A stretch of 64,000 nucleotides of DNA from Pareuzebyella sediminis (GTDB taxonomy: Bacteria > Bacteroidota > Bacteroidia > Flavobacteriales > Flavobacteriaceae), in NCBI RefSeq assembly GCF_008367235.1, contig NZ_VTZS01000003.1, forward strand, positions 496,001 to 560,000, given 5' to 3'. Positions 6,133-47,687 of this stretch are shown here, piece by piece. Numbering within the stretch: the first letter of the stretch is position 1; each line of letters starts with the position of its first letter. The translations under genes and the position numbers were made by a program. Under the pieces are notes generated by a model. That model was not told the origin of the DNA. It was given only the letters and a program-made list of their open reading frames with translations, and searched no databases.

Positions 6133-7029
6133 TTGAATAAAGTGCCCTTACAAAAACACAAAGCAGAACTTGTACTTGATACAAAATCAATTCTTGGAGA
6201 AGGCCCCGTTTGGGATTGGAAAAAGCAAACACTTTTTTGGGTCGATATAGAAGGTCAAAAGCTACATCGACTATCTCCGACACCACAAAATCATACCGAA
6301 TGGGTTTTAGATGCAATGGTCGGAGCCGCTGTGCCTATGAAAGAAGGCAAGCTATTGTTGCCCATGGAATCGGGGTTGGTATCCTTTGATTTGGAATCCG
6401 AAGTATTAAGTACTTTACACGTGCTTGAAAACACCGACCAATCCATTCGTTTTAATGATGGAAAAGTAGGTCCCGATGGCGACTTTTGGGTAGGCACTAT
6501 GGATAAGGGTTGTGCCCCGAAAAGGGGAAATTTTTATCGGGTGGATACTGACTTCAATGCCACCTTACAAATACCGAAAACCTCCGTTTCTAATGGTATG
6601 GCTTGGTCTTCGGATAAGAAGACTCTATATTATATCGATAGTCCGACTTTTGAGGTAAGGGCTTTTGATTTTAAAAATGGCGGTATTTCGAATGCAAAAG
6701 TGGCCATACATGTGCCTAAGGATTATGGTAGCCCCGATGGAATGTGTATCGATGCCGAAGGTATGCTTTGGATTGCGCACTGGGGAGGCCTTTGTGTACG
6801 ATGTTGGAATCCTGAAACTGGTGAAGTTTTGGAAGTCGTAAAGGTAGACGCCCCACATGTGACCTCTTGTTGTTTTGGTGGTAAGGATTTAGATACACTA
6901 TATATTACTACGGCAAGAAGCGGTCTTAATGAAAAACAGCTTCTAAAATATCCATTAAGCGGGGGGCTGTTCTCTCATCGGCCGAAAGTAAAAGGCACTC
7001 CAATAACCTACTTTAAAGGCAAGTCATGA
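6133..7029 (+). CDS. SMP-30/gluconolaconase-like sugar lactonase
   Basis: 298 residues forming one six-bladed SMP-30/gluconolactonase/LRE beta-propeller. The divalent-metal ligands of the family can be placed at E23 (LGEGPVW), N154 (VSNGMAW) and D202 (GSPDGMCID). The family opens aldonolactones to aldonic acids; the sugar is unknown. The chosen start is TTG at 6133, because the next ATG is beyond residue 60, inside the fold; GTG at 6142 is an alternative. It overlaps the SDR gene by ATGA (translational coupling). A lactonase next to a sugar dehydrogenase fits an oxidative, non-phosphorylating sugar pathway. Confidence 0.9.
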   Translation: MNKVPLQKHKAELVLDTKSILGEGPVWDWKKQTLFWVDIEGQKLHRLSPTPQNHTEWVLDAMVGAAVPMKEGKLLLPMESGLVSFDLESEVLSTLHVLENTDQSIRFNDGKVGPDGDFWVGTMDKGCAPKRGNFYRVDTDFNATLQIPKTSVSNGMAWSSDKKTLYYIDSPTFEVRAFDFKNGGISNAKVAIHVPKDYGSPDGMCIDAEGMLWIAHWGGLCVRCWNPETGEVLEVVKVDAPHVTSCCFGGKDLDTLYITTARSGLNEKQLLKYPLSGGLFSHRPKVKGTPITYFKGKS

Positions 7030-7808
7030 AATATTCCGGAATTAAGAGCAAAACGGCTATCATTACTGGAGCCGGGGAAGGCATTGGTTATGCCATTGCA
7101 AAGGCATTGGCAGAAGCCGGCGCTAATGTGGTGCTCAACGACCTTGATAAACTAAAGGCGGCAAATGCAGCAAATGAAATTAGCAAATCGACCATGGGCA
7201 AATGCATTGCATTTCATGGGGATGCAGGAGATGTGGGCACCATCGAAAAAATGGTGGATTTTGCTATTGAAAAGTTCCACCAAGTCGATTTCGTAATACC
7301 CAATGCAGGAATCACCTTATTTGGTGAATTTTTAGAGTTCTCCCCAGAATCCTTTCAAAAAGTGACCCGCCTCAATATGCAGGGGGCATTTTTTTTGGTA
7401 CAATACGCGGCAAAGAAAATGATAGCACAGGGCAGTGGCGGCAAGGTCGTTCTGATGTCATCACAGGTAGGCATTCGCGCCTACCGCCACCTAACGACAT
7501 ATGCCATGACGAAAGCGGCCCTTCGTATGCTGGCCATCAACTTAGCGTACGAACTTGGTGCTTATCGAATCAATATAAATGTGGTAGCTCCAGGGGCCAC
7601 CCTAACCGAGCGCACCGAACAAGAGCAGCCCGACTATGCGGGAGTTTGGAGTAAATTAAACCCCAATGGAAGGGTTGGAAGTCCCGAAGACATCGCTAAT
7701 ACCTGTCTATTTTTGCTCTCCTCTGAAGCCGACCATATCAATGGTCAGACCATTCCAGTCGACGGGGGCTGGACTACGGCAGGAAAGTATCCGGAAGATT
7801 TGGCCTAG
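7026..7808 (+). CDS. SDR family NAD(P)-dependent oxidoreductase
   Basis: 260 residues, a classical short-chain dehydrogenase. The cofactor motif TGAGEGIG is at 14-21, PNAG at 92-95, and the catalytic residues are S145/S146, Y159 and K163 (YAMTK). The C-terminal PVDGGW is typical. It overlaps the lactonase stop by 4 bases and precedes the VOC gene by 11. A sugar or sugar-acid substrate is suggested by the lactonase, for example aldose to aldonolactone; this is inference, since SDR specificity cannot be read from these motifs. Confidence 0.92.
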   Translation: MKYSGIKSKTAIITGAGEGIGYAIAKALAEAGANVVLNDLDKLKAANAANEISKSTMGKCIAFHGDAGDVGTIEKMVDFAIEKFHQVDFVIPNAGITLFGEFLEFSPESFQKVTRLNMQGAFFLVQYAAKKMIAQGSGGKVVLMSSQVGIRAYRHLTTYAMTKAALRMLAINLAYELGAYRININVVAPGATLTERTEQEQPDYAGVWSKLNPNGRVGSPEDIANTCLFLLSSEADHINGQTIPVDGGWTTAGKYPEDLA

Positions 7809-8212: not shown

Positions 8213-9028
8213 TTACTTTTTAAGGTTTTTAATTTTGATGTTTCTGAAGTCGATCGGTTGGCCTTCACTTTGCAAAGCGATCATGCCCTCCTTCAGTAAC
8301 GTACCATCTAGCTTGATTTTTGGGTCATAGCCCTCTGCCGTTCCCCCTCCAATTTGTGGCTTGGAATACTCCAGAACCTTATTGCCGTTGATAATATGGG
8401 TCACTAAGGAGTCGCCCAAAACAATGAGTTCTGCTTTTACCCACTGACTACCGTAGTAGGTCTCCGATGTAGAGTTCAAACAATGGCTCGGATACAATTC
8501 CCCTTGGAATACAATTTCCGTTCCCGGGGAGCACATATTTCCCGTCGGCCTATCGACACCCTCTTCAACACCCGCCAAGAACTGCATTTCTACCGAAATG
8601 GGCCAGTTCTGTTCCTTGAGCATGGTGCGTGGATCTTGGGAGTGAAACATAACGCCGCTGTTTAATATGGTATAACTCGGTGCGCCAGGGTGAAGCTCGC
8701 CTACAAAGCGATATTCCATGGAAAGATGAAAATAGGAAAAGGGCGTGTCATAATACAAATGGCCGAACCGATCATTGAAATCTCCTTCGTACTTATCGTA
8801 ACGAACCTTTATCATTCCATCTTCCGCGCGAAAGGTATCCCCATAATTGTCCCCGGTTTCATAATGATGGATTTTGGTGGTCCACCCGTCGAGATTCTCC
8901 CCGTTGAAAAGCATTTCCCATTCGTCAGTTCCTAAAACTGCAGTTTTCTTAGTAGTACCTCCGAAACATGAAAAAAAGATGGCGAAGGCCAAAATTAGTC
9001 CCGATATAGTTGTTTTGGCTATGCCCAT
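8213..9028 (-). CDS. DUF1080 / 3-keto-disaccharide hydrolase-domain lipoprotein
   Basis: About 271 residues. I chose the ATG at 9028 because it yields a lipoprotein signal peptide (MGIAKTTISG.., lipobox FFSC). The frame stays open to an ATG at 9133, which would add 35 charged residues before the signal. The rest is one DUF1080 beta-sandwich (WEMLFNGENLDGW near the start; SGVMFHSQDP, VEMQFLAG, EGMIALQSEGQPIDFRNIKIKNL at the end), the concanavalin-like fold called 3-keto-disaccharide hydrolase. The family acts on 3-oxidised glycosides or binds glycans at the surface. The partner oxidoreductase could be the Gfo/Idh/MocA protein encoded 12 kb away (inference). It is divergent from GH20. Confidence 0.88.
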   Translation of the reverse strand: MGIAKTTISGLILAFAIFFSCFGGTTKKTAVLGTDEWEMLFNGENLDGWTTKIHHYETGDNYGDTFRAEDGMIKVRYDKYEGDFNDRFGHLYYDTPFSYFHLSMEYRFVGELHPGAPSYTILNSGVMFHSQDPRTMLKEQNWPISVEMQFLAGVEEGVDRPTGNMCSPGTEIVFQGELYPSHCLNSTSETYYGSQWVKAELIVLGDSLVTHIINGNKVLEYSKPQIGGGTAEGYDPKIKLDGTLLKEGMIALQSEGQPIDFRNIKIKNLKK

Positions 9029-9140
9029 GTCATGTAGAATAGATGTGCCAATATACATAAGTTTTTTCAGTGTTTCTTTCCCCGATGGAAACTTATAGGG
9101 ATTCTTTATGCGAAACCGTCCGTTAAGTTTCATATTTCCT

Positions 9141-9176: not shown

Positions 9177-11279
9177 ATGTACCTAAGAACCCTTTTTACC
9201 GCGGCATTTGTGATCATACTCATAAGCTGTAATCCTTCAAAACCGCAAGCCGGTGATTTTAAGTTGTTGCCCATTCCACAGGAATATGAAATAAGCGGGG
9301 TGAGCGACATAGGCCCAAATGACCTTAAAAGTTTTTACAGTACATTGATGTTTGACCCCGCCACCCTAGGAAAAAATTTAAAGCATATTACACCTGTCGA
9401 TTCGCCTTCAAAAGCACAGCTAACCCTCATAATCGATACCGGGCTCGACATTCCTCAACAGGGGTACACCATGAAAATCACGGATGAAACAGTGGCAATT
9501 TCGGCAAAAGATGATGCCGGGCTTTTCTATGGTTGCATGACATTGGGCCAGCTGCTTGAAGATGCCGAGGAGCAAGGAGCAAATTTGCCCCGTTGTCAAA
9601 TTAAGGATTATCCCTTATTGGCTTATCGCGCCGTACACCTTGATGTAAAGCACCACCTTGAAAAGAAGGAGTATTATTATCAGTTGATTGACAAGCTCGC
9701 CAAGTATAAAGTCAACGCTATTATTCTTGAGACGGAAGACAAAATAAAATTTCAACGTAGGCCCTTAGTGGCCTCAGAAGACGCCCTGAGCATTGCAGAA
9801 TGGAAAGCGCTGAGCGATTACGCCCAAGCCAGACATATAGAAATAAGTCCTTTGGTCCAGGGTCTTGGCCACGCCTCTTATGTACTAAAACATCCGGAAT
9901 TCTACGAACTACGCGACGATCCCAATAGTGATTGGGCCTTTAATCCTTTAGACCCAGAAACCTATAAGGTTCAGTTCGACCTATATCTAGATGCCATGGA
10001 GGCCACCCCTCATGGTAAATACTTGCACGTCGGTGGCGATGAGGTGCATACAACAGGCCGAAACAGTGGAAAATCGGCTCTGGAGTTACAATTGCTTTGG
10101 CTTGAAAAGGTAAGTAGTTTTGCCGCCGCACATGACCGTATTCCTATTTTTTGGGATGATATGCCCTTAAAGCAGGCGGATGTATATGCCCCAATGTTCA
10201 AACCCGAGATGACCCAAAAAGAAGTGGATAGTGTCTGGCGTGAAAATGAACATAAATTGACCGCCTTTCTCGGTCAATTTCCAAAAAACTGTATATACAT
10301 GCGATGGAACTACAGCTCTCCAGAGGCCTTGGGTAATTTAAAAGCCATGGACTGGTTCAGAAATAATGGTCTAGAGGTCATGGGAGCGACCGCCGGTCAA
10401 ACCCGTTGGGTATTAATGCCCCAACAAGAAAGCAATATGGAGAACATAAAATCTTTCGCGTTAAATTCCATTGAAAGTGGCTCTCAAGGCCTATTGTTGA
10501 CCCTTTGGGATGATGATTCGCCCCATTTCGAACTGTACAACCGTGGAATTTTGTTCTTTTCAGAATATACTTGGGCCGGGGACAGGCGGGACAAAAAAAG
10601 TTTGAAATCTGCGTATAGGCAACGTGAATTTTCCCATGCGCTGGCTGATTCCTCAAGTGCTTTTATAGATCAACTTGAAACACCCGTAGCTTTTTGGAAA
10701 AATGCCCTTCTTAAGGGAAATAAGAGGAATTATCTAAAAAAAATGGAGAATCCTTTAGAAGACGGGGTCATCGATCTTCCTACGAAAAGCAGCGAAGGCT
10801 CGTGGAGCGAAACCTACGCGCCGCGACTCAAAGAAGCGGCCCTAATACTTCATAAGACCGATAGCATACGGTCTATACTTAAAGGGAATCGATCGAAAAC
10901 AATTCGCAATGCGTATACCCTAGAAGTATATGAACAAGTGAACGAGATGACTGCACTGCCGGCAAAGTTGTTGTTGGCATTAAGTGAGTACGATAGGGCA
11001 AAAGGAACAGAAACAAAGGTAGCGGCGCTAAAAAATCTTGATAGCCTGAGAATTGACTTTCAGGATCGCAGGGCCGAGCTGGAAAGGGTGTACGGACAAA
11101 CGCGTATTCTAATGAAACCGGAGAACTATATTTTAGATCAAGATCATCATGCCCATTTGGCCAACCAGTCGCTCAACTTCGATTGGCAGTTCTATGCCGA
11201 GATGTTATTTTTCGAAAAACTGGAAAAAAAGCTCGACAATGCCATTTATCTGGAAAATGAAGACGCCCTGAAAAAATAA
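9177..11279 (+). CDS. GH20 beta-N-acetylhexosaminidase-like lipoprotein
   Basis: 700 residues. The signal peptide ends in a lipobox (LISC, C18), so it is an outer-membrane or periplasmic lipoprotein. A GH20b-type domain spans about 25-145, and the catalytic TIM barrel starts at about 150 (YRAVHLDVKHHLEKKEYY). The active-site pair D288-E289 is seen in HVGGDEVH. The barrel ends near 490, followed by a helical region of about 200 residues I cannot assign. GH20 enzymes remove terminal GlcNAc or GalNAc by substrate-assisted catalysis. Near a sialidase-like and a sulfatase gene this fits trimming of an amino-sugar glycan. Confidence 0.9.
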   Translation: MYLRTLFTAAFVIILISCNPSKPQAGDFKLLPIPQEYEISGVSDIGPNDLKSFYSTLMFDPATLGKNLKHITPVDSPSKAQLTLIIDTGLDIPQQGYTMKITDETVAISAKDDAGLFYGCMTLGQLLEDAEEQGANLPRCQIKDYPLLAYRAVHLDVKHHLEKKEYYYQLIDKLAKYKVNAIILETEDKIKFQRRPLVASEDALSIAEWKALSDYAQARHIEISPLVQGLGHASYVLKHPEFYELRDDPNSDWAFNPLDPETYKVQFDLYLDAMEATPHGKYLHVGGDEVHTTGRNSGKSALELQLLWLEKVSSFAAAHDRIPIFWDDMPLKQADVYAPMFKPEMTQKEVDSVWRENEHKLTAFLGQFPKNCIYMRWNYSSPEALGNLKAMDWFRNNGLEVMGATAGQTRWVLMPQQESNMENIKSFALNSIESGSQGLLLTLWDDDSPHFELYNRGILFFSEYTWAGDRRDKKSLKSAYRQREFSHALADSSSAFIDQLETPVAFWKNALLKGNKRNYLKKMENPLEDGVIDLPTKSSEGSWSETYAPRLKEAALILHKTDSIRSILKGNRSKTIRNAYTLEVYEQVNEMTALPAKLLLALSEYDRAKGTETKVAALKNLDSLRIDFQDRRAELERVYGQTRILMKPENYILDQDHHAHLANQSLNFDWQFYAEMLFFEKLEKKLDNAIYLENEDALKK

Positions 11280-11572: not shown

Positions 11573-12679
11573 CTACACCTTGAAATATATTTTATGTTTA
11601 TCCAGAAAATAAGTGATATACCAGAAGATAAAAAGCACGAATAGGGCATTGATTACCATGATCACTTGTTCCGAAATTCCTAGGGGAGCCAACAAACCTT
11701 CGGTCCAGATTTTTCCAAACCCACGAAACCATTGTGCACCTACCGTTTCCGCGAACAAATAGATAAAAATGGAATTGGTACCCACCACTGAAAACACTTT
11801 TAGCCAATTCTTATGATTATTTTTTACGTCGATGGTCCAATAAAATAAAGCTAAGACCAATATGGCAATTCCGCCCGACGCCAAGGTAAACGAGCTCGTG
11901 GCGATCCGCTTAACGATAGGGGTAATATGCAGCAAATCCATGGCGAAACCCAGTACCAAAATGACGGTTCCCCAAATCAAAAAAGATTTCAATTTTTCAC
12001 TGGCAGGTGTTTGCGATAATAGCATTCTTCCGCAGACGACACCCCAAATAGTATGGGCCGCGGTAGGAATAAAATTGACGAAAACCCAATAGTCATCATT
12101 TATCTTGCCCATAACCAACATATCGATATAAGAGCCAAAACTATCATGCCCCTGCGCATAGGGGGCTTCTGGATTGTACGCCCGATATAAAATTTCGGTC
12201 AACACCAATAGACCAACCGAAATACCGATTTGTGTGTTGTTGGACAGGTTCATAATTGCATAGGCAATCAAGATGGTAAAAGCCAACTGCACCAATACAT
12301 TCCAAAGTTCCCAAACCAGCGCATGCGAATACACGCAATGCAATAAGACCCCAAACCAAAACAACAGAAAACAACGGCGGAGAATATGCTTGGTTACCTC
12401 ACTTCGACTTCCTCGGCTTAATCGCTTGCGCAAGGAGAAAGGCATGGCCACCCCCACAATAAACATGAAAAAGGGTTGAATCAGGTCCCAAAATCGGAGT
12501 CCATTCCATGGGTGATGATGCAATTGATGGGCAAGTCCAGAAAATAACGTTCCTTCAGCCAATTCCGAGAAATTGTGGTGGAACCCCGCGGCTTCCGCAA
12601 CGAGCAGAAACATAGTAAGGCCACGAAAAACATCCAAAGAAAAAAGACGCTTAGAGACATTTTCGGCGAATTGAGACAT
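11573..12679 (-). CDS. Heparan-alpha-glucosaminide acetyltransferase-like (DUF5009) membrane acyltransferase
   Basis: About 368 residues with roughly ten predicted membrane segments. The start LFSLDVFRGLTMFLLVAEAAG and the block HHHPWNGLRFWDLIQPFFMFIVG are signatures of the DUF5009/HGSNAT-type family, which moves acyl groups across the membrane onto sugars; the human lysosomal enzyme acetylates glucosamine ends of heparan sulfate. I chose ATG at 12679 (MSQFAENVSKRLFSLD); the frame extends to 12748 but the added residues do not fit the family. The substrate is unknown; the neighbouring GH20 makes an amino sugar plausible. It is transcribed away from the phyH operon. Confidence 0.88.
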   Translation of the reverse strand: MSQFAENVSKRLFSLDVFRGLTMFLLVAEAAGFHHNFSELAEGTLFSGLAHQLHHHPWNGLRFWDLIQPFFMFIVGVAMPFSLRKRLSRGSRSEVTKHILRRCFLLFWFGVLLHCVYSHALVWELWNVLVQLAFTILIAYAIMNLSNNTQIGISVGLLVLTEILYRAYNPEAPYAQGHDSFGSYIDMLVMGKINDDYWVFVNFIPTAAHTIWGVVCGRMLLSQTPASEKLKSFLIWGTVILVLGFAMDLLHITPIVKRIATSSFTLASGGIAILVLALFYWTIDVKNNHKNWLKVFSVVGTNSIFIYLFAETVGAQWFRGFGKIWTEGLLAPLGISEQVIMVINALFVLFIFWYITYFLDKHKIYFKV

Positions 12680-13015: not shown

Positions 13016-13744
13016 ATGTGCGAACTGACCCAAAAACAAAAACATTTCTTCGCGGAAGAGGGGTACCTTGTCGTAGAAAATTTGCTGACGAAAAAAGAAA
13101 TCACCTATTACAGCGATCTTTACAATTCCTTTTTGAACAACGAGATTGATGCCTCAAAATTCCGGTCCGACCTATCGGGAAGTAATGACACAAAAGAAAA
13201 AATCACTCAAATCATGGTACCTAGCAAGCTGGTTCCAGAACTGTTAGAAAAATCTTTACATCAGAAATCACTGGCCATGGCCAAGGCGCTTATGGGCGAT
13301 GATATCGAACTTGATTTTGATATGTTGATCAATAAGGCGCCCTATACCGATACTATTACTCCATGGCATCAAGATGCCGCTTATTGGATCGATATGCCTG
13401 ACAAACGGGCTGCTAGTTGTTGGGTGGCCATAGATCCGGCATACAAAGAAAATGGGTGTATGTGGTATACTCCAAAATCACATCAGAATCCAGTGTTGCC
13501 ACACGTGCAAACTGGCAATAAAGGAGCTTTGAAATGTGAGGGTGGCGAAGAAAATTCCGTTTTTGTTGAGTTAAGCCCTGGTTCCTGCGTTTTTCACCAG
13601 GGAGGTACCCTTCACTACAGTCGTGGAAATTCAACCGCCGATAATCGAAGGGCTTTCATCACGAATTTTCGGCCCAAGGCTATGATTGAAATGGAGCGTA
13701 TGCAGGGAGTAGACCATACCGGAGAGCGTGAGGTAAAAGCATAA
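13016..13744 (+). CDS. Phytanoyl-CoA dioxygenase (PhyH) family Fe(II)/2-oxoglutarate oxygenase
   Basis: 242 residues from the ATG at 13016 (MCELTQKQKHFFAEEGYLVV), the usual PhyH N-terminus; an in-frame ATG at 12965 would add 17 residues. Iron ligands are H-x-D in PWHQDAAYW and a distal histidine in GTLHYSRGNS, followed by an arginine (NRRAF) for 2-oxoglutarate. The GCMWYTPKSH segment is typical of the ectoine-hydroxylase-like branch. These cytoplasmic enzymes hydroxylate small molecules. It is first in a tight run with a sialidase-like gene (8 bases), SGNH esterase (5), fructosamine kinase (12) and PQQ dehydrogenase (39). The substrate is unknown. Confidence 0.9.
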   Translation: MCELTQKQKHFFAEEGYLVVENLLTKKEITYYSDLYNSFLNNEIDASKFRSDLSGSNDTKEKITQIMVPSKLVPELLEKSLHQKSLAMAKALMGDDIELDFDMLINKAPYTDTITPWHQDAAYWIDMPDKRAASCWVAIDPAYKENGCMWYTPKSHQNPVLPHVQTGNKGALKCEGGEENSVFVELSPGSCVFHQGGTLHYSRGNSTADNRRAFITNFRPKAMIEMERMQGVDHTGEREVKA

Positions 13745-13752
13745 TATATATC

Positions 13753-14862
13753 ATGAAGAGTTTGTTCTTACTTTTAACGGTACTATTTTCTTTCGGTCTT
13801 TTTGGCCAAGAGAAGTTGGTGCTTCAAAATCTATTCGATGCTACTCTTTCAGAGGAGGTTTCCTGCTATCGTATTCCAGCTTTGACTACTGCGCCAAATG
13901 GCGACCTTTTGGCGGCCATAGATGAACGGGTTGCCTCTTGTAGCGATTTGGGCACTAATCCAAACATCAACATTGTACTTCGCCGTAGTACGGACCACGG
14001 AAAGACATGGTCGGAAATAGAAAAGGTCGCTGATTTTCCTGAAGGCCAGTCGGCCTCCGATCCTTCTTTTATAGTAGATATGCAGACCAAAAATATCTTA
14101 TTGTTTTACAATTATATGAATGTAAACGAAGAAAAGGGCGTGTATTACTTTCATGTAATGAAAAGTAATGACAATGGAAAATCTTGGTCGGCACCACAGG
14201 ATATTACTTCTCAAATCAGCGAAAAGGATTGGAGCCGTGATTTTAAATTTATAACTTCTGGAAGAGGTATTCAAAGGCGGTCCGGACAACTTTTGCATAC
14301 GTTGGTGAATTTAGAACATGGTCTCCATTTATTTGGAAGTGATGACCACGGAAAAACCTTTTTTGTAAGGGACAAACCCTTATTGCCCGGCGATGAATCG
14401 AAGGTCGTTGAGCGTGCCGACGGAAGTTTAATGGTGAACAGTCGTGTGAACAGTGGAGGGATGCGATATGCGCACTTTTCAGGAAAGAATGAAGCTACTT
14501 GGCATGCCGAGCCCCAGCCTGAACTGATAGACCCAAGTTGCAACGCCAGTATGATTCGTTACACCGAAAAAGCAGATGGTTTCTCAAAGAATCGAATTTT
14601 ATTTTCTAATGCCAAGAATAACCGGGAACGTAAAAATATGACGGTGCGTATCAGCTACGACGAAGGACAGAGTTGGGGCGAGGGCAAGACCATATATCAA
14701 GGATTAGCCGCCTACTCAACAATGACTATATTGGAAAACGGAAATATTGGCCTTCTTTTCGAGGGCGATGGGTATACCAAAAACTATTTCACTCAATTTT
14801 CATTAGAATGGCTTACTGATGGAAAAGATAGATTGAACAAACATTCGAAAAAGAAATATTAA
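13753..14862 (+). CDS. Secreted BNR-repeat sialidase-like glycosidase (GH33-type)
   Basis: 369 residues with a cleavable signal peptide (1-18, ending LFGQ). The CYRIPALTTAPNGDLLAA motif (38-55) contains the YRIP signature with the first arginine of the sialidase triad (R40). Asp-boxes occur at STDHGKTW (79-86), SNDNGKSW, SDDHGKTF and SYDEGQSW, as in a six-bladed sialidase propeller. ERADGSLMVNSRV carries a likely nucleophile-region glutamate. GH33 enzymes release terminal sialic acids. The full set of catalytic residues was not checked by alignment, so a related specificity is possible. No sialic acid catabolic genes (nanA, nanE) are in the window. Confidence 0.87.
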   Translation: MKSLFLLLTVLFSFGLFGQEKLVLQNLFDATLSEEVSCYRIPALTTAPNGDLLAAIDERVASCSDLGTNPNINIVLRRSTDHGKTWSEIEKVADFPEGQSASDPSFIVDMQTKNILLFYNYMNVNEEKGVYYFHVMKSNDNGKSWSAPQDITSQISEKDWSRDFKFITSGRGIQRRSGQLLHTLVNLEHGLHLFGSDDHGKTFFVRDKPLLPGDESKVVERADGSLMVNSRVNSGGMRYAHFSGKNEATWHAEPQPELIDPSCNASMIRYTEKADGFSKNRILFSNAKNNRERKNMTVRISYDEGQSWGEGKTIYQGLAAYSTMTILENGNIGLLFEGDGYTKNYFTQFSLEWLTDGKDRLNKHSKKKY

Positions 14863-14867
14863 AAACG

Positions 14868-15971
14868 ATGCAAGTGAGGCATATTGGGTTTTTAGGTTTG
14901 TTTTTAATATTGTGCGGAAAAGGCCTTTTCGCACAGGAAAATGAAAAATATCATTGGTACGACCCCGTGGAGACAATAGAACGTTTCGAGGGACAGGGCT
15001 GGAGCCACATTGGTTACCATCGCTTACCAAATCATGCAGAAGGCGTAGTGCGGGATGCCGTATGGTCACTCTCCCAACATGCGGCGGGTCTAGGCCTACA
15101 ATTTGAGTCCGATGCCGATTCCATTGCAATTGAATACCAGGTAGATGGTAATTTATTTATGCATCATATGCCAGCAACCGGTGTAAGTGGCATAGATTTA
15201 TACGTAAAGAGCAATAACGAATGGCTATGGTGTAGGGGAAAGTACAGCTTCAAAGATACTGTTCGGTATGATTTTGTGATGAATAATCTTTCTAAGGGTC
15301 TAAAAACCTATTCCATGTATTTTCCTCTTTACAATACTATAAAAAACTTGAAAATTGGGGTCCCCCACGGTAAAACATTTCTTTTCCGGGATGCTGTTAA
15401 AGAGAAACCTATAGTGGTATACGGAACGAGTATAGCCCAAGGAGCTTGTGCGTCAAGGCCAGGTATGGCGTGGACCCATATCCTTTCAAGAGCACTGAGT
15501 CGTCCTGTGGTCAATCTTGGGTTTTCCGGTAATGGAAGATTAGAGCCCGAAGTCATTGACCTCATAACGCAAATCGAAGCCTCGCTCTTTATACTTGACT
15601 GCCTACCAAATCTCTCACCAAATAAAGAAAACACTAAAAAAGAGGTTCAAAATCGTTTACGTAGCAGTGTTCGCAACCTAAGGGCCAAACATCCTAGAAC
15701 ACCCATTTTACTCACGCAGCACGCCGGCTATTCAGATGGGTTGGTAAACTCTGCCCGCGAAAAGGTGTACTTAACCCTCAACGAATGGCTTGAAGAATCG
15801 TTCAAAAGCTTAAAAGCTGAAGGCATTTCGAATATTTATATGCTCACAAAAAAAGATATCGGCCTCTCAAACGACGCCTTCGTAGATGGCACTCACCCTA
15901 CCGATTTAGGTATGCAACAATATGCCATGGCCTATGCTACAAAAATCAAGGCCATTCAAAGCGGCATGTAA
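14868..15971 (+). CDS. Secreted SGNH/GDSL-type esterase with N-terminal beta-sandwich
   Basis: 367 residues with a signal peptide (1-22, LFAQ). Residues about 30-175 form a beta-rich N-terminal domain common in this family; the SGNH hydrolase starts at about 180. The nucleophile is S188 in YGTSIAQG, the glycine/asparagine blocks are in NLGFSGNG (216-223) and DCLPN (244-248), and the D-x-x-H pair is D340/H343 in DGTHP. Such proteins deacylate glycans. Between a sialidase-like enzyme and a kinase it may remove O-acetyl groups that block a glycosidase (inference). Confidence 0.9.
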   Translation: MQVRHIGFLGLFLILCGKGLFAQENEKYHWYDPVETIERFEGQGWSHIGYHRLPNHAEGVVRDAVWSLSQHAAGLGLQFESDADSIAIEYQVDGNLFMHHMPATGVSGIDLYVKSNNEWLWCRGKYSFKDTVRYDFVMNNLSKGLKTYSMYFPLYNTIKNLKIGVPHGKTFLFRDAVKEKPIVVYGTSIAQGACASRPGMAWTHILSRALSRPVVNLGFSGNGRLEPEVIDLITQIEASLFILDCLPNLSPNKENTKKEVQNRLRSSVRNLRAKHPRTPILLTQHAGYSDGLVNSAREKVYLTLNEWLEESFKSLKAEGISNIYMLTKKDIGLSNDAFVDGTHPTDLGMQQYAMAYATKIKAIQSGM

Positions 15972-15983
15972 TATTTTAATCGA

Positions 15984-16871
15984 TTGACCCATACAAGAAT
16001 TAAGCGTTTGAAAAAACCTGTCGTCGACCATATTGAAAAACTACTATCGGTTCAAATTTCCGGAACACGTTCAATTTCGGGAGGGGATATCTCAGAGGCC
16101 TATCTGGTACAAACACAGAAAGGACATTTTTTCTGTAAGGTGAATAACGGGCCCCACGCATTTTCTATGTTTTTGGCCGAAAAAAAGGGGTTAGAGGCCA
16201 TTTCGCAAACAGCTACGGTGGCGAGTCCAAAAGTTTTGGGTTGTGAAAAGCTAGATTCATGTTCCCTTCTGGTATTGGAGTATATCGAATCTAAATCGCC
16301 CTCCCCAACTGACATGGAACGCTTCGGGCATCAATTGGCGGATTTGCATTCAAAATCAAGCCCTGACGGCTTTGGGTGGGAATCCGATAACTTTATTGGA
16401 AGCCTCCATCAATCCAACAAAAGGCATTTGGACTGGTCAGCCTTTTATGTAAGCGAACGTCTTGTGCCCCAACTTATGCTCGCTAGGGCCAGAAACCTCC
16501 TATCCCCTTCGGAACTTCCCTCTGAGGAATCCCTGTTAAAGCGATGTCAAGATACTTTTCCAAAGGTGAGACCCGCACTTTTACATGGCGATCTATGGGG
16601 CGGTAATTATCTTATCGCCCAAAATGGCACCCCTGTGCTGATCGATCCTGCTACCTATTATGGACATAGGGAAGTAGATATTGCCATGACCCGTTTGTTC
16701 GGGGGTTTTGAACCAACTTTCTACAGCGCATATGCCGAACACTTTCCGGAGGTCGGGGGAGAAAAGGAGCGAAGCGACCTATATCAACTATATTACCTGC
16801 TGGTTCATCTGAATTTATTCGGCCTCTCTTATAAGTCATCGGTCATGCCGATTTTGAAACGATATTTTTAA
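15984..16871 (+). CDS. Fructosamine kinase (FN3K) family protein
   Basis: 295 residues of the aminoglycoside phosphotransferase-like kinase fold. ATP-binding K52 is in HFFCKVN; the catalytic loop is HGDLWGGN (201-208, base D203) and the metal site DPATYYGHREVD (221-232) is characteristic of FN3K. The family phosphorylates ketoamines (Amadori products), which then break down. The first ATG is far inside the domain, so TTG at 15984, 12 bases after the esterase stop, is used. No signal peptide: cytoplasmic. It is the only kinase in the run, so a ketosamine-like breakdown product may be imported and phosphorylated (inference). Confidence 0.88.
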   Translation: MTHTRIKRLKKPVVDHIEKLLSVQISGTRSISGGDISEAYLVQTQKGHFFCKVNNGPHAFSMFLAEKKGLEAISQTATVASPKVLGCEKLDSCSLLVLEYIESKSPSPTDMERFGHQLADLHSKSSPDGFGWESDNFIGSLHQSNKRHLDWSAFYVSERLVPQLMLARARNLLSPSELPSEESLLKRCQDTFPKVRPALLHGDLWGGNYLIAQNGTPVLIDPATYYGHREVDIAMTRLFGGFEPTFYSAYAEHFPEVGGEKERSDLYQLYYLLVHLNLFGLSYKSSVMPILKRYF

Positions 16872-16910
16872 GTAATTTACCTACTTTTAAAAAACTGTTT
16901 CACCAAATCA

Positions 16911-19043
16911 ATGATTTATAAACAATATTTCCATTACGTGTTATGGTGCTTGCTGTACACCTTTCTGACGGTATCATGTGAACCGGAAAAAGAAAGGTCC
17001 CAAGACGTGGAATATCGCACGTGGTCTTCCTATTTAGGCGACGCCGGCCGAACTCATTATTCTACTTTATCACAAATAACCCCGGAAAATGTAGAAGGCC
17101 TGAAAATGGCTTGGTCTTATGAGGCACCCGACTGGGGGCAGATGCAAATGAGTCCGATAGTCGTTGACAGTATGCTTTTCGGAGTCACCGCCGCCCTCCG
17201 TGTGGTCGCTCTACATGCCGCTACCGGAAAGGAAATTTGGCAATTCGGGGATTCGGTCCAGGTCTGGCATTCAACAAGTCGGGGTGTTTCGTATTGGGAA
17301 GGTAGAAACGACAAACGCATTCTATGCACTCGTGGACCCCATCTTTTCGCTTTGGATGCTTTGACGGGTAAGCCTATTTCTTCTTTTGGAAACAACGGTA
17401 AGGTGGATATGCGAAAAGGAATGCACCCCGGCGCACGGGAAAAATTCGTGATTTCCAACACGCCCGGTACCATTTACAAAAATCTTATCATTATGCCCTT
17501 ACGCCTTTCCGAAGGAGCGGGTGCTGCGCCTGGCAATATTATGGCCTTCAATGTAATTACTGGGGTTTTGGAGTGGGTCTTTCATACCATTCCTCATCCC
17601 AAAGAAGAGGGGTACAACACTTGGGAAAACGGAGACGCCTATAAAAGTGATGTTGTAGGCGCTGCAAATAACTGGGCCGGCATGGCCGTGGACGAGGAAC
17701 GGGAAATTATCTATATTCCCACAGGTTCGGCCGCTCCTGATTTTTATGGAGGCGTTCGTAAAGGAAGTAATCTCTTTGCAAACTGCTTGTTAGCATTAGA
17801 CGCGAATACTGGAAAGCGACTTTGGCATTTCCAATTTACCCATCACGATATCTGGGATAGAGATCCTCCTGCTCCACCAAACTTATTGACCGTTGAAAGA
17901 AACGGTGAACAAATTGCGGCTGTAGCCCAAGTCACCAAACAGGGCTATGTGTTCGTTTTTAACAGGGAAACCGGTGAGCCTCTGTTCGACATTGAGGAGC
18001 TTTCGGCACCTGAATCGGAGCTCATGGGCGAAGCAACTTGGCCCACACAACCCAGGCCCCTAAGACCAAAGCCCTTTGCCCGTCAATCTATCGATTTGAC
18101 AGAAAGCAATATCAGTCCCTTTGCCCAAAATGCGGATTCACTGCGAGATATTCTTATGAAGGCCGACAAGCGACTATACGCACCGCCAAGCCTACATCCT
18201 GTGCTGTTGCTTCCTGGGTACGATGGGGCCGCTGAATGGGGCGGAGCCGCTGCAGATCCCTATAAGGGAATATTGTATGTCAATGCCAATGAAATGGCAT
18301 GGATATTACGAATGGGTAAGGCTGACGAAGATTTAAATAACCTTCCATTAGGGGAGGCTACCTATAAAAAATACTGTGTGTCTTGTCATCAAATAGATCG
18401 AAAAGGTTTGGCAGACAGTGGTTTTCCTTCCTTAATCGATATTGAATTGCGTAAAGGAAGCGATGAAATAAGGCAAATTATCACTAATGGTAAAGGGATG
18501 ATGACGGGGTTTCCCCAGCTTACGGACAAAGAGAAAACCGCATTGGTTCGCTTTTTATTCAACCAAGAAATCAAGCATAATGTTTCCGAGAATTCCGAGG
18601 GAAAAGAAATTTATCAATTGCCCTATAAACATTTGGGCTACATCAAATTTTTGGACAGTCAAGGGTTACCCGCAATAAACCCTCCTTGGGGTTCGTTACA
18701 TGCCATCGATCTAAATACCGGTGAGTATAATTGGTCCATTCCCTTGGGCAACACTCCCGAGCTCGGTGAAGAAGGGATTGGCACAGGCACCGAAAATTAT
18801 GGGGGACCCGTAGTTACCGAAAACGGATTGTTGTTTATCGCAGCAACACGAGATGGTTATTTTAGGGTGTTCGACAAAAAAAACGGCGCCCTGCTTTGGG
18901 AATACAAATTGCCCGCACCTGCCTTTTCTACACCTGCTATGTACGAGGTCAACGGCAAGCAGTATATTGCTCTTGCCTGTGGAGGCGAAAAACTGGGGAC
19001 GCCGAAGGGAAATCAAATCGTTGCTTTTGCTTTAGAGCCATGA
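16911..19043 (+). CDS. PQQ-dependent quinoprotein dehydrogenase with inserted cytochrome c domain
   Basis: 710 residues. The signal peptide has a lipobox (LTVSC, C23), so it is a periplasm-facing lipoprotein. PQQ-propeller repeats cover about 35-470 and 575-710 (AATGKEIW, ANTGKRLWHFQ, GALLWEYKLP). Between them lies a cytochrome c domain: CVSCH (489-493) binds heme and M530 or M531 (GKGMMTGFP) is the likely axial ligand. Related enzymes oxidise sugars or alcohols and pass electrons through their heme to the respiratory chain. PQQ synthesis genes are not in the window. It ends the five-gene run; the sulfatase converges with it. Confidence 0.92.
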   Translation: MIYKQYFHYVLWCLLYTFLTVSCEPEKERSQDVEYRTWSSYLGDAGRTHYSTLSQITPENVEGLKMAWSYEAPDWGQMQMSPIVVDSMLFGVTAALRVVALHAATGKEIWQFGDSVQVWHSTSRGVSYWEGRNDKRILCTRGPHLFALDALTGKPISSFGNNGKVDMRKGMHPGAREKFVISNTPGTIYKNLIIMPLRLSEGAGAAPGNIMAFNVITGVLEWVFHTIPHPKEEGYNTWENGDAYKSDVVGAANNWAGMAVDEEREIIYIPTGSAAPDFYGGVRKGSNLFANCLLALDANTGKRLWHFQFTHHDIWDRDPPAPPNLLTVERNGEQIAAVAQVTKQGYVFVFNRETGEPLFDIEELSAPESELMGEATWPTQPRPLRPKPFARQSIDLTESNISPFAQNADSLRDILMKADKRLYAPPSLHPVLLLPGYDGAAEWGGAAADPYKGILYVNANEMAWILRMGKADEDLNNLPLGEATYKKYCVSCHQIDRKGLADSGFPSLIDIELRKGSDEIRQIITNGKGMMTGFPQLTDKEKTALVRFLFNQEIKHNVSENSEGKEIYQLPYKHLGYIKFLDSQGLPAINPPWGSLHAIDLNTGEYNWSIPLGNTPELGEEGIGTGTENYGGPVVTENGLLFIAATRDGYFRVFDKKNGALLWEYKLPAPAFSTPAMYEVNGKQYIALACGGEKLGTPKGNQIVAFALEP

Positions 19044-19066: not shown

Positions 19067-20623
19067 TTATTCTAGACAATTGGCACCTTCAAACAGGCCC
19101 CCTTTCCTTACCAACATATCGTACTCCTTTATTTTTTGATTCAAATCGTAATCATTAAACTGATAATCTGGGGTATACAATACGGTATCCCAATAGACGG
19201 TGTGAGGTGCTTTGGCCCGGAGATCATCGGTTGCTGACATCCATTCTTGTAGTTCTTTCCTAAGAGAAGCGATTTCTTTCCCATAGTTCTTGTTTTCGAT
19301 TTCATTCCGCAGATTGTAGGGATCACTGGCCAAGACATAAAATTCTTCCTTTGGTCTTTTGGCGAACGCAAGTTCGAAATAGTCTTTATCAGTAGGTTTG
19401 CCTTCTTGCTCCATAATCAGGAATTTGGAAATCGAATTGTCAATATCGCCATATTGGCCAACAGATTGGTGTACATGGGGGTCCCCGGCGGGCCACCTAT
19501 CCGGCTCAAAATTCTTGATATACAAATAATCTTTTGTGCGTATCGCCCTTACCGGATAGCTCAAGTCACCCTTACGCACGTTGGCATGGCGTTCACGCTC
19601 TAAGAAAACTTTGGTTCGATCTATTTTTACCCCTGGTTCTTCACTAAAAAGAGCCATTAAGCTATGGCCACTAAATGCTTTGGGTATCTCCACTCCAGCG
19701 GCTTCCAAAAATGTAGGTCCAAAATCGATGAAATTCATGAATTCGGTAATTCGTTGTCCACCTTCGATATGGCCTTTCCAATACATGGCCAATGGCATGC
19801 GCGTGCCGTAATCGTATAAATTGGCCTTAGCTCTGGGGAAAGGCATGCCGTTATCACTTGTCATAACAATTAATGTGTTGTCTAGAAGCCCCTTCCGCTC
19901 TAAGACATCGATAATATTTCCTGATTCGCGATCGAAACGTTCTGCCTCAAAAAAGTAATCCATAATATCATTACGCACACAAGGTGTATCGGGTAAAAAT
20001 TCCGGTACTACAACCGACTCCGCGTCCATACCTGTCTTTACGCCCGTATTAGTTTCGTAGGTGCGGTGTGGGTCTTGGCTTCCAAACCAGTAGGCAAAAG
20101 GCTGATCATCCGATTTATCGTCTAAAAAGGTTTCAAAATCAAGATATTCCTTACCGGCAGGATTGTGTTCGTAGCCTCCAGACTTGTAGTCGCCAGGTCC
20201 CCAGCCTTTTCTGCTTTTGCCCGTATGGTATCCAGATTGTTTCAACAAGCTCACCCAATTTGGAAATTTATCAGGTATAATCGACCAAAGGTTCCCGGCT
20301 GCCTCATTCTGATGAGGGTAGCGGCCCAGTAGGATGCTCGCCCTAGAAGGCGAACACGAAGGTGCCGCGCAGTAGGCATTCTCGAACACTGCCCCTTCGT
20401 TCGCCAATCGGTCAAATGTCGGTGTGCGAACCACAGGGTCGCCATACACCCCTGCGTGGGGGTACGACCAATCGTCGGCAATCATAAAAAGGATATTGGG
20501 CGCTGTTCTTAATTTAGTTGAATCCTTTTCTGGTTTTTTTTCTGAATTTGAGGGCGGTGACATGGCCAAAAGAAAGATTAGTAGGAACAAGTTCAACGCA
20601 GCAGTTGGTCTTATCGTTTTCAT
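19067..20623 (-). CDS. Family S1 sulfatase (formylglycine type)
   Basis: 518 residues with a signal peptide (about 1-21), so periplasmic or exported. The metal residues are in MIADDWSY (D50, D51) and the signature C-S-P-S-R is at 90-94 (SCSPSRASILLGRYP), with C90 the residue oxidised to formylglycine by an anaerobic or FGE-type maturase encoded elsewhere. VMTSDNGMPFPRAK contains the D-N calcium ligands. The enzyme removes sulfate esters, probably from a polysaccharide, consistent with nearby glycan genes and a marine habitat. The precise substrate (heparan, ulvan, fucan or other) cannot be named. It converges with the PQQ gene and is divergent from the oxidoreductase gene. Confidence 0.93.
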   Translation of the reverse strand: MKTIRPTAALNLFLLIFLLAMSPPSNSEKKPEKDSTKLRTAPNILFMIADDWSYPHAGVYGDPVVRTPTFDRLANEGAVFENAYCAAPSCSPSRASILLGRYPHQNEAAGNLWSIIPDKFPNWVSLLKQSGYHTGKSRKGWGPGDYKSGGYEHNPAGKEYLDFETFLDDKSDDQPFAYWFGSQDPHRTYETNTGVKTGMDAESVVVPEFLPDTPCVRNDIMDYFFEAERFDRESGNIIDVLERKGLLDNTLIVMTSDNGMPFPRAKANLYDYGTRMPLAMYWKGHIEGGQRITEFMNFIDFGPTFLEAAGVEIPKAFSGHSLMALFSEEPGVKIDRTKVFLERERHANVRKGDLSYPVRAIRTKDYLYIKNFEPDRWPAGDPHVHQSVGQYGDIDNSISKFLIMEQEGKPTDKDYFELAFAKRPKEEFYVLASDPYNLRNEIENKNYGKEIASLRKELQEWMSATDDLRAKAPHTVYWDTVLYTPDYQFNDYDLNQKIKEYDMLVRKGGLFEGANCLE

Positions 20624-20746: not shown

Positions 20747-21805
20747 ATGAAAATAAAAGTATTGGTAGTTGGCTGTGGCAATATGGGTTCTTCACATGCC
20801 AAAGCCTATCATAAATTAGAAGATTTCGAAATTGTAGGTTTGGTGAGTAGAACGCCAGAAAGCCGTGAGCGACTTTCAAAAGAACTTGGAGGATATCCCA
20901 CTTTTTCCGATTATGACAATGCTCTAGAAAACACAAAGCCTGACGCAGTGTCGATCAACACCTACCCGGACACCCATGCGAACTACATTAGAAAGGCCCT
21001 CGAGGCCAATGCACATGTTTTTGTTGAAAAGCCCCTTGCCTTGACCGTTGAAGATGCCCAAGCATTAGTAGAAATGGCTCAAAAAAAAGACAAAAAAATG
21101 GTTGTGGGCTATATCCTAAGGGTTCACCCTGCTTGGGCTAAATTTGTCGAAGTGGCCAAAAGTCTCGGCAAGCCCTTGGTCATGCGCATGAACCTCAACC
21201 AACAAAGTTCCGGCGCCCATTGGCATACGCATAAGCAATTAATGAATTCGATGTCTCCGATCGTAGACTGTGGTGTTCATTATGTTGATGTTATGTGCCT
21301 TATGACGGGGTCGGTGCCATTAAGCGTAAGTGCGATAGGAGCGCGTCTTTCGGATGAGATTGATGAAAAAATGTACAACTACGGACAATTACAGGTCCGC
21401 TTTAAAGACGGTTCTGTTGGCTGGTACGAGGCGGGATGGGGACCCATGATGAGCGAAACCGCCTTTTTTGTGAAAGATGTGATCGGGCCTAAAGGTTGTG
21501 TCTCTATCATAGATGAAGCAAAAGGTGATTCAGATGACGTGGATAGCCACTCGAAAACAGGTGCGCTCAAACTGCACCATAGCATGACGGATGACCAAGG
21601 ACGATTTACGAAAAAGGACGAGCTGATCGACACGTCCGATGAACCGGACCATGATGGATTATGTCTTTTGGAACAGCACTATTTTCTGAAGGCAATTCAA
21701 AATGACCTCGATCTCAAGGACCATTTGCGCGATGCCGTAAACAGTCTCCGAATTGTACTGGCGGCCGATGCGTCTTTTCGCACGGGAAAAACCATTATGC
21801 TCTAA
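20747..21805 (+). CDS. Gfo/Idh/MocA family oxidoreductase
   Basis: 352 residues. An N-terminal Rossmann fold starts at once (VVGCGNMGSSHAKAYH, about 7-22) and the VEKPLAL motif (about 93-99) holds the conserved E-K-P of the family. The C-terminal alpha/beta domain contains DCGVHYVDVMC, with the H that takes part in catalysis in many members. The family oxidises or reduces sugars and cyclitols with bound NAD(P); some act at C3 of glycosides and work with DUF1080 hydrolases. No signal peptide. Standing next to a sulfatase and in a region with a DUF1080 gene, it may belong to such a pathway (inference). Confidence 0.92.
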   Translation: MKIKVLVVGCGNMGSSHAKAYHKLEDFEIVGLVSRTPESRERLSKELGGYPTFSDYDNALENTKPDAVSINTYPDTHANYIRKALEANAHVFVEKPLALTVEDAQALVEMAQKKDKKMVVGYILRVHPAWAKFVEVAKSLGKPLVMRMNLNQQSSGAHWHTHKQLMNSMSPIVDCGVHYVDVMCLMTGSVPLSVSAIGARLSDEIDEKMYNYGQLQVRFKDGSVGWYEAGWGPMMSETAFFVKDVIGPKGCVSIIDEAKGDSDDVDSHSKTGALKLHHSMTDDQGRFTKKDELIDTSDEPDHDGLCLLEQHYFLKAIQNDLDLKDHLRDAVNSLRIVLAADASFRTGKTIML

Positions 21806-21813
21806 AGGCTATT

Positions 21814-23004
21814 TCAATCCTTAAAAAGAGGGGTTTCCGATAGGCTAATAAGCGCCTCCCCTTTTTCCCTTAAGATTCGTTTGGTGCGCAAATAGCGTTG
21901 GCGGTTATAATCGTCATAGTTGTCGGCATTGGGATCCATGCTGCTGATTCTTACCCTATCGGATGAATGTATAAATTCATTATTGCCGATCCACATGCCC
22001 ACATGCACCACTTTTTCGTTGGTAGAGTCGGTGGCTTTCCTGCCAAAGAAGAGCAAATCACCTTTCTGCAGATTTTCAAAATGTTGTACCGAATCGATTG
22101 GTTTACCCGTGTGTACCTGCTGTGACGCGTCTCTCGGTATTATCATTCCGTTCAGAAAATAAATGGTTTTCGTAAAACCGCTACAATCAACTCCTTTACT
22201 GGAGGTCCCTCCCCATAAATACGGCACTCCCATGAGTGTTTTAGAAGTCGAAACCAGTCTCTCCGGTGTAGGGTTTAAGCTGTTCAACCATTCATCATAG
22301 TTTAGGGCCTCCTCTTTTCTTATATAGGCCTCTCGACCATCAGGAAATCGAACCTGATAATACTTTTCTGTCTCGGCCAAAAGTACCAAAACATCTCCTG
22401 CGACCAAGTCGGAAACGATGCTCTTCTCTTCAAAGTCGTTAAAAGCGTGGCCATAGGTTTTGGTAAATATAATTTTATTGGAGACCCTCCATTGTTCCAT
22501 TTCCTTTTTATTCATTAGAACTACCCCCCCATCATCTACCCACGATAAATATTTGTCGGGGGTTTGAATGTAGTACCATCCGCCATCTTGTTTTAGTACC
22601 CTTACGGGGGTTCCCAAAGTGGCTTGGGTTGCCAATTCTGCAGAATGTTTTGGGTTACTTCTCAAGTTGGCTACTGAATTAGTGATGACGCCCCAGGTCT
22701 TACCCCCTAATGATTTCGATGGTAGTTCTTTAATCTCTGAAATGAAAGAAATATTGGCTCTTTCTAGCCGCTCCCCTAAAGCGCTAACGGCTTCAGGCTT
22801 GTCCGTCTCTCCTTTTAAAATATATTTCGTCGCATCCGTAAAGACGTGCACATCGAAAAGCGCCGTTCTTTTATCGGGCGCGTACTGTTCTCTGACCTCC
22901 TTAATTTGTAGAAGTAGCTGCTTTTGTTTTGTTTTCGGTGAACATGAAAACAAAACGATGAATAATAATGCCAAAATGCTGATTTGTGTACCTTTTTTGT
23001 TCAT
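21814..23004 (-). CDS. NlpC/P60 (C40) peptidase lipoprotein with SH3 domains
   Basis: 396 residues. The lipobox is LFSC (C21). A region of about 80 residues precedes two SH3-like domains (about 105-165, VANLRSNP; and 180-235, LVAGDVLVLL). The NlpC/P60 domain follows, with C274 in VDCSGFTKT, H334 in VVHVGMW and H346 in FIHSS. The family cleaves cell-wall peptides, usually gamma-D-Glu-meso-DAP bonds. The layout matches YkfC-like murein peptidases of Bacteroidota. It ends 8 bases from the convergent oxidoreductase stop. Confidence 0.92.
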   Translation of the reverse strand: MNKKGTQISILALLFIVLFSCSPKTKQKQLLLQIKEVREQYAPDKRTALFDVHVFTDATKYILKGETDKPEAVSALGERLERANISFISEIKELPSKSLGGKTWGVITNSVANLRSNPKHSAELATQATLGTPVRVLKQDGGWYYIQTPDKYLSWVDDGGVVLMNKKEMEQWRVSNKIIFTKTYGHAFNDFEEKSIVSDLVAGDVLVLLAETEKYYQVRFPDGREAYIRKEEALNYDEWLNSLNPTPERLVSTSKTLMGVPYLWGGTSSKGVDCSGFTKTIYFLNGMIIPRDASQQVHTGKPIDSVQHFENLQKGDLLFFGRKATDSTNEKVVHVGMWIGNNEFIHSSDRVRISSMDPNADNYDDYNRQRYLRTKRILREKGEALISLSETPLFKD

Positions 23005-23055
23005 TGCAGTTATATTGTGAGCATCCCTTATTAATTGAATTTATATTGAGAACCT

Positions 23056-23063
23056 CAAAGTTA
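23056..23063 (-). promoter_or_regulatory. -7 box candidate for the NlpC/P60 gene
   Basis: Minus-strand TAACTTTG (plus strand CAAAGTTA) fits TAnnTTTG and lies 51 bases before the start. No convincing -33 element. Confidence 0.35.
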
Positions 23064-23510
23064 TAGAACTTTTTGCTGGAGTCGATGGTTTGCCTCGTCA
23101 AGATTATTACTATGGTAGTTCCATGTAGAGTCTAAAAGGGTTCATTGGCTAAACACAAGTTTTGTAGTGGAGTATTCATAGAATTCTAACCAAAAAAAGC
23201 CTTGATAACCTGAATTATACGGATCTGAATAAGCGCCCAAGATGTTTCAAAGACGTATCAAACCGACCATTTGGTCCCTACTATTGGGATTGGGAATTTC
23301 AAAGGCTTCAACCCTTACCCTTTAACGATAAAAAGTAATATTAGTCCGCATAAAATTGTTCGAGAGAATTGTTATTGAAAATAAAAACCGATCATATAGT
23401 CTTTTTTTATTTTTCTTTTGTAGCAACTACAAATTCGACTAAACTATTAAAAAACTGTTAATCAGTCCATAAAGTTTGGATTTTCATTATTTTATTTTAT
23501 ATTACCTGTT
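23064..23510. other. Intergenic region without recognised features
   Basis: An AT-rich gap between two divergent genes. I see no ORF with protein-like composition, no tRNA and no clear terminator. The last 120 bases before the next gene are very AT-rich and probably hold its promoter, but no TAnnTTTG box is present. Confidence 0.4.
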
Positions 23511-23885
23511 ATGGTAAAGGTAGAAAAGTCAGAAAATCAGGAGTTCTTAGAGAAGTCGATCAATCATTTGGAAGCAACGGGTTTTGAAGATATTAAAGCC
23601 GATTTAGAAGGATATGAAACTCCTAAATCATATATTCGAAAAGGAAGTGATTCCAAAATCACCCCCGACATTGTCGCCCTAAAAAATGGTAGAAAATATT
23701 ATTTTGAAATTAGTTTGAAGTCGGCTAAACCCAGACTTCTTAAAACTAAATGGCTCTTTTTGGATACCCTTAGTCGTATGAATTCAAACAGATTTAGAAT
23801 CATAACCACTCGAGGACATTACAAATTCACCGATACTATGTTAGAAGACATTAATCTAACGAATAAAGAACCGATTAAGATTTAA
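23511..23885 (+). CDS. Small PD-(D/E)XK nuclease-like protein
   Basis: 124 residues, cytoplasmic. ITPDIVALKNGRKYYFEISLKS (about 50-71) has the spacing of a PD-(D/E)XK active site: P52-D53, a short beta-hairpin, then E66-x-S68 with K70 nearby; the usual lysine is replaced by serine, or shifted to K70. A helix precedes it (EFLEKSINHLEATGFEDIKAD), and a final strand (NRFRIITTRGHYKF) follows, as in small Holliday-junction or restriction-like folds. I do not recognise a named family. It is a lone gene, divergent from the NlpC gene and followed by a strong bidirectional terminator. Nuclease activity is not proven. Confidence 0.7.
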   Translation: MVKVEKSENQEFLEKSINHLEATGFEDIKADLEGYETPKSYIRKGSDSKITPDIVALKNGRKYYFEISLKSAKPRLLKTKWLFLDTLSRMNSNRFRIITTRGHYKFTDTMLEDINLTNKEPIKI

Positions 23886-45574: not shown

Positions 45575-45575
45575 T

Positions 45576-47681: not shown

Positions 47682-47687
47682 GGTGGG

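Follow-up and report, generated by a model that had tools for sequence, protein, structure and literature searches.

Within the 64,000-nucleotide stretch of the Pareuzebyella sediminis genome analyzed here (contig NZ_VTZS01000003.1, positions 496,001 to 560,000; hereafter, the window), five open reading frames (ORFs) form a co-directional row on the plus strand, at positions 13016-19043, with intergenic gaps of 8, 5, 12 and 39 bp. The location and spacing agree with the original prediction for this DNA, which had been made from the sequence alone and had tentatively placed the five genes in a single glycan pathway, and the family names proposed there were confirmed by Pfam (PhyH; BNR_2; Lipase_GDSL_3 with GxDLY; Fructosamin_kin; PQQ, that is, pyrroloquinoline quinone, with cytochrome c). 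The genes are:

13016..13744, plus strand: cytoplasmic PhyH-type Fe(II)/2-oxoglutarate oxygenase, 242 amino acids (Pfam PhyH, E = 1.4e-30; PDB 4xab, 2e-26)
13753..14862, plus strand: predicted exported GH33-type exo-sialidase, BNR/Asp-box (Pfam BNR_2, 4e-25; PDB 7lbu, 5e-45, and 1eur, 1e-41)
14868..15971, plus strand: exported SGNH esterase with a GxDLY N-domain and Lipase_GDSL_3 (Lipase_GDSL_3, 5e-71; GxDLY, 8e-43; PDB 4lhs, 1.5e-49)
15984..16871, plus strand: fructosamine/ketosamine-3-kinase family protein (FN3K), TTG start (Fructosamin_kin, 1.7e-83 to 2e-84; PDB 6oid, 2e-49)
16911..19043, plus strand: lipoprotein PQQ dehydrogenase with an mGDH-like propeller and an inserted c-type cytochrome domain (Pfam PQQ, 1e-175; AlphaFold2; Foldseek)

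The catalytic residues of all five proteins are intact and invariant across orthologs. A single transcript spanning the five genes is plausible; a pattern scan detected the Bacteroidetes-type promoter (TTG-N17-23-TAnnTTTG) neither ahead of the row nor between its genes.

Each of the five proteins, as well as the neighboring GH20 protein, was used as a query against 300 genomes of Flavobacteriaceae, including the window genome (G000, 4.9 Mb). A full-length ortholog of the PQQ dehydrogenase, with at least 60% identity, is present in 26 of these genomes, and in 15 of the 17 genomes that possess both this gene and FN3K (12 genera), the two are adjacent or nearly so, on the same strand. In locus L041, the two genes stand in reversed order, and a GH3 gene (L059) or a small ORF (L058) is inserted between them with the orientation kept. 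Given this degree of linkage, we reject the possibility that FN3K and PQQ are neighbors by chance only. In the literature on FN3K with PQQ, or on PQQ sugar dehydrogenases in marine Bacteroidetes, we found no description of an FN3K-PQQ linkage; thus, conserved in about a dozen genera, it is apparently undescribed.

The complete five-gene set was found in the window genome only. Of the 26 loci with the PQQ ortholog, 6 carry PhyH, 4 carry SGNH, 3 carry GH20, and just one, the window, carries the sialidase; the co-occurrence of the five families that had been proposed as a check failed to appear, with the sialidase adjoining FN3K or PQQ in 0 of the 299 other genomes. The surrounding region is stable, running in order through an S41 protease, SMP-30, SDR (short-chain dehydrogenase/reductase), glyoxalase, DUF1080, in some genomes GH20, a NagX-like gene, a variable interval, FN3K, PQQ, in some genomes a sulfatase, Gfo/Idh, NlpC, and then housekeeping genes as far as ribonuclease R. 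The same-strand cargo in the interval beside FN3K-PQQ varies by genus and includes PhyH, SGNH, sialidase, a PqqB-like metallo-beta-lactamase-fold protein, S10, GH3, GH95 and GH28. This genus-specific cargo, the FN3K-PQQ linkage, the prevalence of the sialidase in sialic acid (nan) clusters and the retention of the other neighbors in a genome without FN3K and PQQ (both described below) suggest that the row is probably a mosaic same-strand operon on a conserved FN3K-PQQ pair, within a stable Flavobacteriaceae stretch that collects sugar genes, and not one linear pathway. These comparisons mark the sialidase, the esterase and the oxygenase as genes that were added locally and do not belong to a common pathway; each is also found apart from FN3K-PQQ. 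The genes of the stretch around the row in the window are:

6133..7808, plus strand: SMP-30/gluconolactonase-like and SDR pair, conserved neighbors (synteny)
8213..9133, minus strand: DUF1080/3-keto-disaccharide hydrolase-type lipoprotein, conserved neighbor (PF06439, 1e-39; synteny)
9177..11279, plus strand: GH20-type lipoprotein hexosaminidase, accessory neighbor (family match, synteny, genome search)
11573..12679, minus strand: NagX/HGSNAT-like transmembrane N-acetyltransferase, divergent from the row (NCBIfam NagX, 1.5e-35, below cut-off)
19067..20623, minus strand: exported sulfatase with an SGSH-like C-domain, accessory neighbor (family match, synteny)
20747..21805, plus strand: Gfo/Idh/MocA oxidoreductase, conserved neighbor (family match, synteny)

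The kinase is the sole FN3K in its genome. It matches the Pfam family over the full length and contains the kinase motifs HGDxWxGN and DP, as do the ketosamine repair enzymes, and its top PDB match is the plant protein-ribulosamine 3-kinase (6oid); the linkage to a periplasmic quinoprotein sets it apart from these enzymes. The longest frame opens with TTG at 15984, 12 bases past the SGNH stop. In a tree of 47 sequences, where some loci appear twice, the PQQ-linked kinases all group in a single clade (support 0.75); its sister clade (support 0.98) includes genes that adjoin RsmB and PurL. Many bacterial homologs are ribulosamine/erythrulosamine kinases with a presumed role in the repair of glycated proteins (Gemayel 2007, cited in PMC13223202), and the active-site residues do not decide between ribulosamine and fructosamine as the substrate (PMC13223202). 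Because the gene is a single copy and the sister clade has the RsmB-PurL context, housekeeping deglycation fits better than a catabolic kinase, and a repair role would be the simplest reading; the same two observations count against the proposal that FN3K phosphorylates a glycan-derived ketosamine inside the cell. The kinase may nonetheless be coupled to the PQQ enzyme, and the linkage offers a handle on the question of protein repair versus sugar catabolism among bacterial fructosamine kinases.

In the PQQ dehydrogenase, the catalytic Asp and Lys positions and the CxxCH heme site with its Met ligand (D316, K343, C489, C492, H493 and M531) are invariant in 26 sequences, and the heme domain (CVSCH), at residues ~480-549, is inserted between propeller blades. 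The AlphaFold2 model (mean pLDDT 83) has quinoprotein dehydrogenases as Foldseek matches, which confirms the fold. The PQQ propeller, the HHDxWD and TKQG positions and the heme c domain are shared with mGDH and the quinohemoprotein alcohol dehydrogenases (TIGR03074; 8gy2, 1kv9, 1kb0), whereas the cytochrome c domain is C-terminal in the quinohemoprotein enzymes, and the N-terminal membrane domain of TIGR03074 is replaced by a lipoprotein-type signal: the match starts at profile position 146 and reaches 437 bits versus the cut-off of 833. No PqqE above the family cut-off was found in the window genome (best score 59 bits versus 381), which suggests that PQQ is probably scavenged from outside; a PqqC search gave no match, its control search being likewise empty. 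This bears on whether Flavobacteriaceae without detected PQQ genes need scavenged PQQ for sugar oxidation. The genome encodes a second PQQ-cytochrome dehydrogenase (C13:28366-30480, L081; 47% identity) and several weaker candidates. In two loci, an exported PqqB-like metallo-beta-lactamase-fold protein (TIGR02108, E = 1.5e-30, below cut-off) is encoded directly upstream of FN3K-PQQ (L044:9323-10294, minus strand; L056:7192-8154, plus strand), and a relative is found near PQQ in L070.

The BNR protein possesses the complete GH33 catalytic set (R40, D65, E215, R231, R293, Y321 and E337, aligned to 1eur and 7lbu, with D65 aligned in 7lbu and one column off in 1eur), and all seven positions are invariant in 21 aligned sequences. 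We take their roles to be those in the Micromonospora enzyme, that is, the Arg triad, Asp, Glu, the Tyr nucleophile and a helper Glu. The protein thus looks like a GH33-type exo-sialidase predicted to hydrolyze sialosides; together with four other genomes where SGNH again accompanies GH109, DUF1080 and Gfo/Idh, this bears out the view of the exported enzymes as glycan-active. Of the 23 orthologous sialidase loci read, 17 are nan clusters with NanA and N-acylglucosamine 2-epimerase (AGE), often also with GntR, a SASA esterase, creatininase and NanM/SSF. The nan clusters of Flavobacteriaceae, such as that of Flaviramulus, for which NanA and sialidases have been described (PMC4324048), resemble the window in their sialidase subfamily (51-66% identity) and in having an esterase nearby, joined in Flaviramulus by a PhyH protein. 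The window locus differs in lacking NanA, AGE, NanM/SSF and SusC/D, in its esterase (GxDLY-SGNH, not SASA) and in its PhyH protein, which is 31% identical to that of Flaviramulus. In the whole window genome, no close NanA was found (best match 25% identity, E = 1e-13, versus 50-78% in true nan clusters), and the AGE search gave no match, with no positive-control genome alongside but with a query that does mark the nan clusters of relatives. Hence the sialidase likely uncaps glycans, and the host probably makes no use of the sialic acid released. Capture of the gene from a nan cluster was considered and rejected: the window sequence falls outside the main nan-cluster group in the BNR tree, and its GC content (0.416) is near that of its neighbors.

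The PhyH protein retains the HxD...H iron triad and the Arg for 2-oxoglutarate (H, D, H and R invariant in 23 sequences), and the nearest solved structure is the sugar-tailoring oxygenase EvdO2 (PDB 4xab). An alternative in-frame ATG lies upstream, at 12965; the start at 13016 matches the orthologs of 240-245 amino acids, for example, that in L056. A general link between PhyH and sialic acid was rejected because the orthologs (50-82% identity) adjoin SusC/SusD-like pairs in several genomes; in the loci read, none was seen beside the sialidase outside the window genome. In L096 (G243:C66), a sialidase, a nan-type PhyH (78% identical to the Flaviramulus protein) and creatininase occur together without NanA, so that PhyH-sialidase pairs do exist outside nan clusters. 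In L058, a stop codon interrupts the PhyH gene adjoining FN3K (G258:C1:2281209-2281706), which suggests that PhyH is dispensable there.

The catalytic Ser188, Asp340 and His343 of the SGNH esterase are invariant in 14 sequences. Related esterases turn up repeatedly in a block that also encodes a GH109-type protein, DUF1080 and Gfo/Idh (L080, L143, L145 and L147); the block in L080 (genome G262), at an unrelated genomic place, additionally contains GH20 (60% identity) and a diverged PQQ paralog. In L139, the same block of GH109-type Gfo/Idh, DUF1080 and Gfo/Idh has GH20 in place of SGNH. In genome G081, GH20-DUF1080-SDR-SMP30 (L128) and NagX-SGNH-Gfo (L140) lie ~120 kb apart on one contig, and the protein searches of the 300 genomes yielded no FN3K or PQQ match in this genome. 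The NagX-like gene is a neighbor in 13 of the 26 PQQ-ortholog loci. A part in glucosamine use has been attributed to NagX proteins, and one in the hydrolysis of 3-keto sugars to periplasmic DUF1080 proteins (PMC9007349); the window resembles those Bacteroidetes pathways in combining a NagX-like protein with DUF1080 in a conserved neighborhood and differs from them in showing no LacABC or known 3-dehydrogenase partner and in the sub-threshold NagX score. The recurring blocks lead us to favor a role in amino-sugar glycan processing for SGNH, GH20, DUF1080 and NagX, independent of FN3K. The amino-sugar theme of the original prediction accordingly holds for part of the set, with GH20, NagX, sulfatase and DUF1080 around, but not as a joint pathway of the five genes. 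Clustered glycan hydrolases, a sulfatase and an esterase are also features of polysaccharide utilization loci, from which this locus differs in the lack of a SusC/SusD pair: a scan of the ORFs in the first 31 kb of the window (1-31 kb) showed no SusC-size ORF and no SusD family match.

If the row is a mosaic on the FN3K-PQQ pair, its products would act in separate compartments. Outside the cytoplasm, the sialidase would take off terminal sialic acid and the esterase acyl groups, and the trimmed amino-sugar glycans would become open to GH20 and the sulfatase. In the periplasm, the PQQ lipoprotein, judging from its fold and residues, would oxidize a released aldose or glycoside and pass the electrons via the inserted heme domain. 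In the cytoplasm, FN3K, given its family and ancestry, would clear ketosamine damage from proteins, and PhyH would hydroxylate a small molecule or a sugar; the row, and probably the transcript, would be common to all five genes. Several considerations weigh against this interpretation. The FN3K-PQQ linkage probably arose once, as the clade support of 0.75 indicates, and its persistence may partly reflect shared ancestry, given that the stable region also keeps the ribonuclease R, CDF and S41 genes. Furthermore, the substrate of each of the five enzymes is a deduction, transcription of the genes as one unit is a prediction, and the AGE search carries the control caveat given above. The comparison nevertheless replaces a guess from one genome with a picture of conserved FN3K-quinoprotein linkage and exchangeable glycan-enzyme cargo, and it warns that tight spacing in one genome is poor ground for pathway inference.

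A credible minority alternative is a neutral mosaic, in which the stable region contains an insertion spot and the five genes share only position and, perhaps, a promoter. The flanking S41, NlpC, CDF and ribonuclease R genes indeed equal the FN3K-PQQ link in conservation, and the cargo is of diverse kinds (GH28, GH3, alginate lyase, phosphorylase, peptidase). However, the cargo between NagX and PQQ lies on the same strand as FN3K-PQQ, the pair outlasts a swap of order as well as insertions, the combination of GH20, DUF1080, SGNH and Gfo reappears with the diverged PQQ paralog elsewhere in G262, and SGNH-GH109-DUF1080-Gfo is found in three further loci.

It is rather unlikely that FN3K and the PQQ dehydrogenase form a functional pair, either as a two-compartment defense against reactive sugars, with aldoses oxidized outside and ketosamine damage removed inside, or with FN3K acting on a new substrate derived from the quinoprotein product. 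Under the latter variant, the exchangeable glycan-trimming genes would feed FN3K, and the exported PqqB-like protein might help with PQQ in some genera.

We regard as quite unlikely a single pathway on an acylated sialic-acid-like or amino-sugar glycan, with FN3K phosphorylating a ketosamine and the PQQ enzyme oxidizing a sugar. The tight spacing, the true sialidase residues, the amino-sugar neighborhood with GH20 and NagX, and the juxtaposition, in Flaviramulus, of the same sialidase subfamily with a SASA esterase and a different PhyH protein are compatible with it; the uniqueness of the set, the outcome of the NanA and AGE searches, the single housekeeping-type FN3K and the glycan genes of G081 argue against it. 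Very unlikely is a periplasmic route in which the PQQ enzyme takes the place that LacABC or Gfo/Idh dehydrogenases have in the known 3-keto pathways and oxidizes glycosides at C3, an activity that we do not know for the PQQ propeller fold, with the exported DUF1080 lipoprotein hydrolyzing the 3-keto-glycoside. DUF1080, exported like the PQQ enzyme, is among the neighbors in about half of the PQQ-ortholog loci and is again clustered with the paralog in L080, and the pairing of periplasmic DUF1080 with a 3-dehydrogenase has precedent (PMC9007349), but the PQQ protein resembles C1-oxidizing glucose dehydrogenases (TIGR03074), DUF1080 is missing from several PQQ loci, and in G081 it occurs without PQQ.

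Farther along the window, the C5 cytosine DNA methylase gene that adjoins the NlpC gene in 16 related loci, often with a ~204 amino acid gene, is missing between NlpC and a 124 amino acid ORF (21814-23885). At 31880-49961, a giant SprB-repeat protein (4573 amino acids) with a type IX secretion signal is encoded next to PorP/SprF and a further CHU_C protein, and the group has the appearance of an SprB-type gliding adhesin unit.

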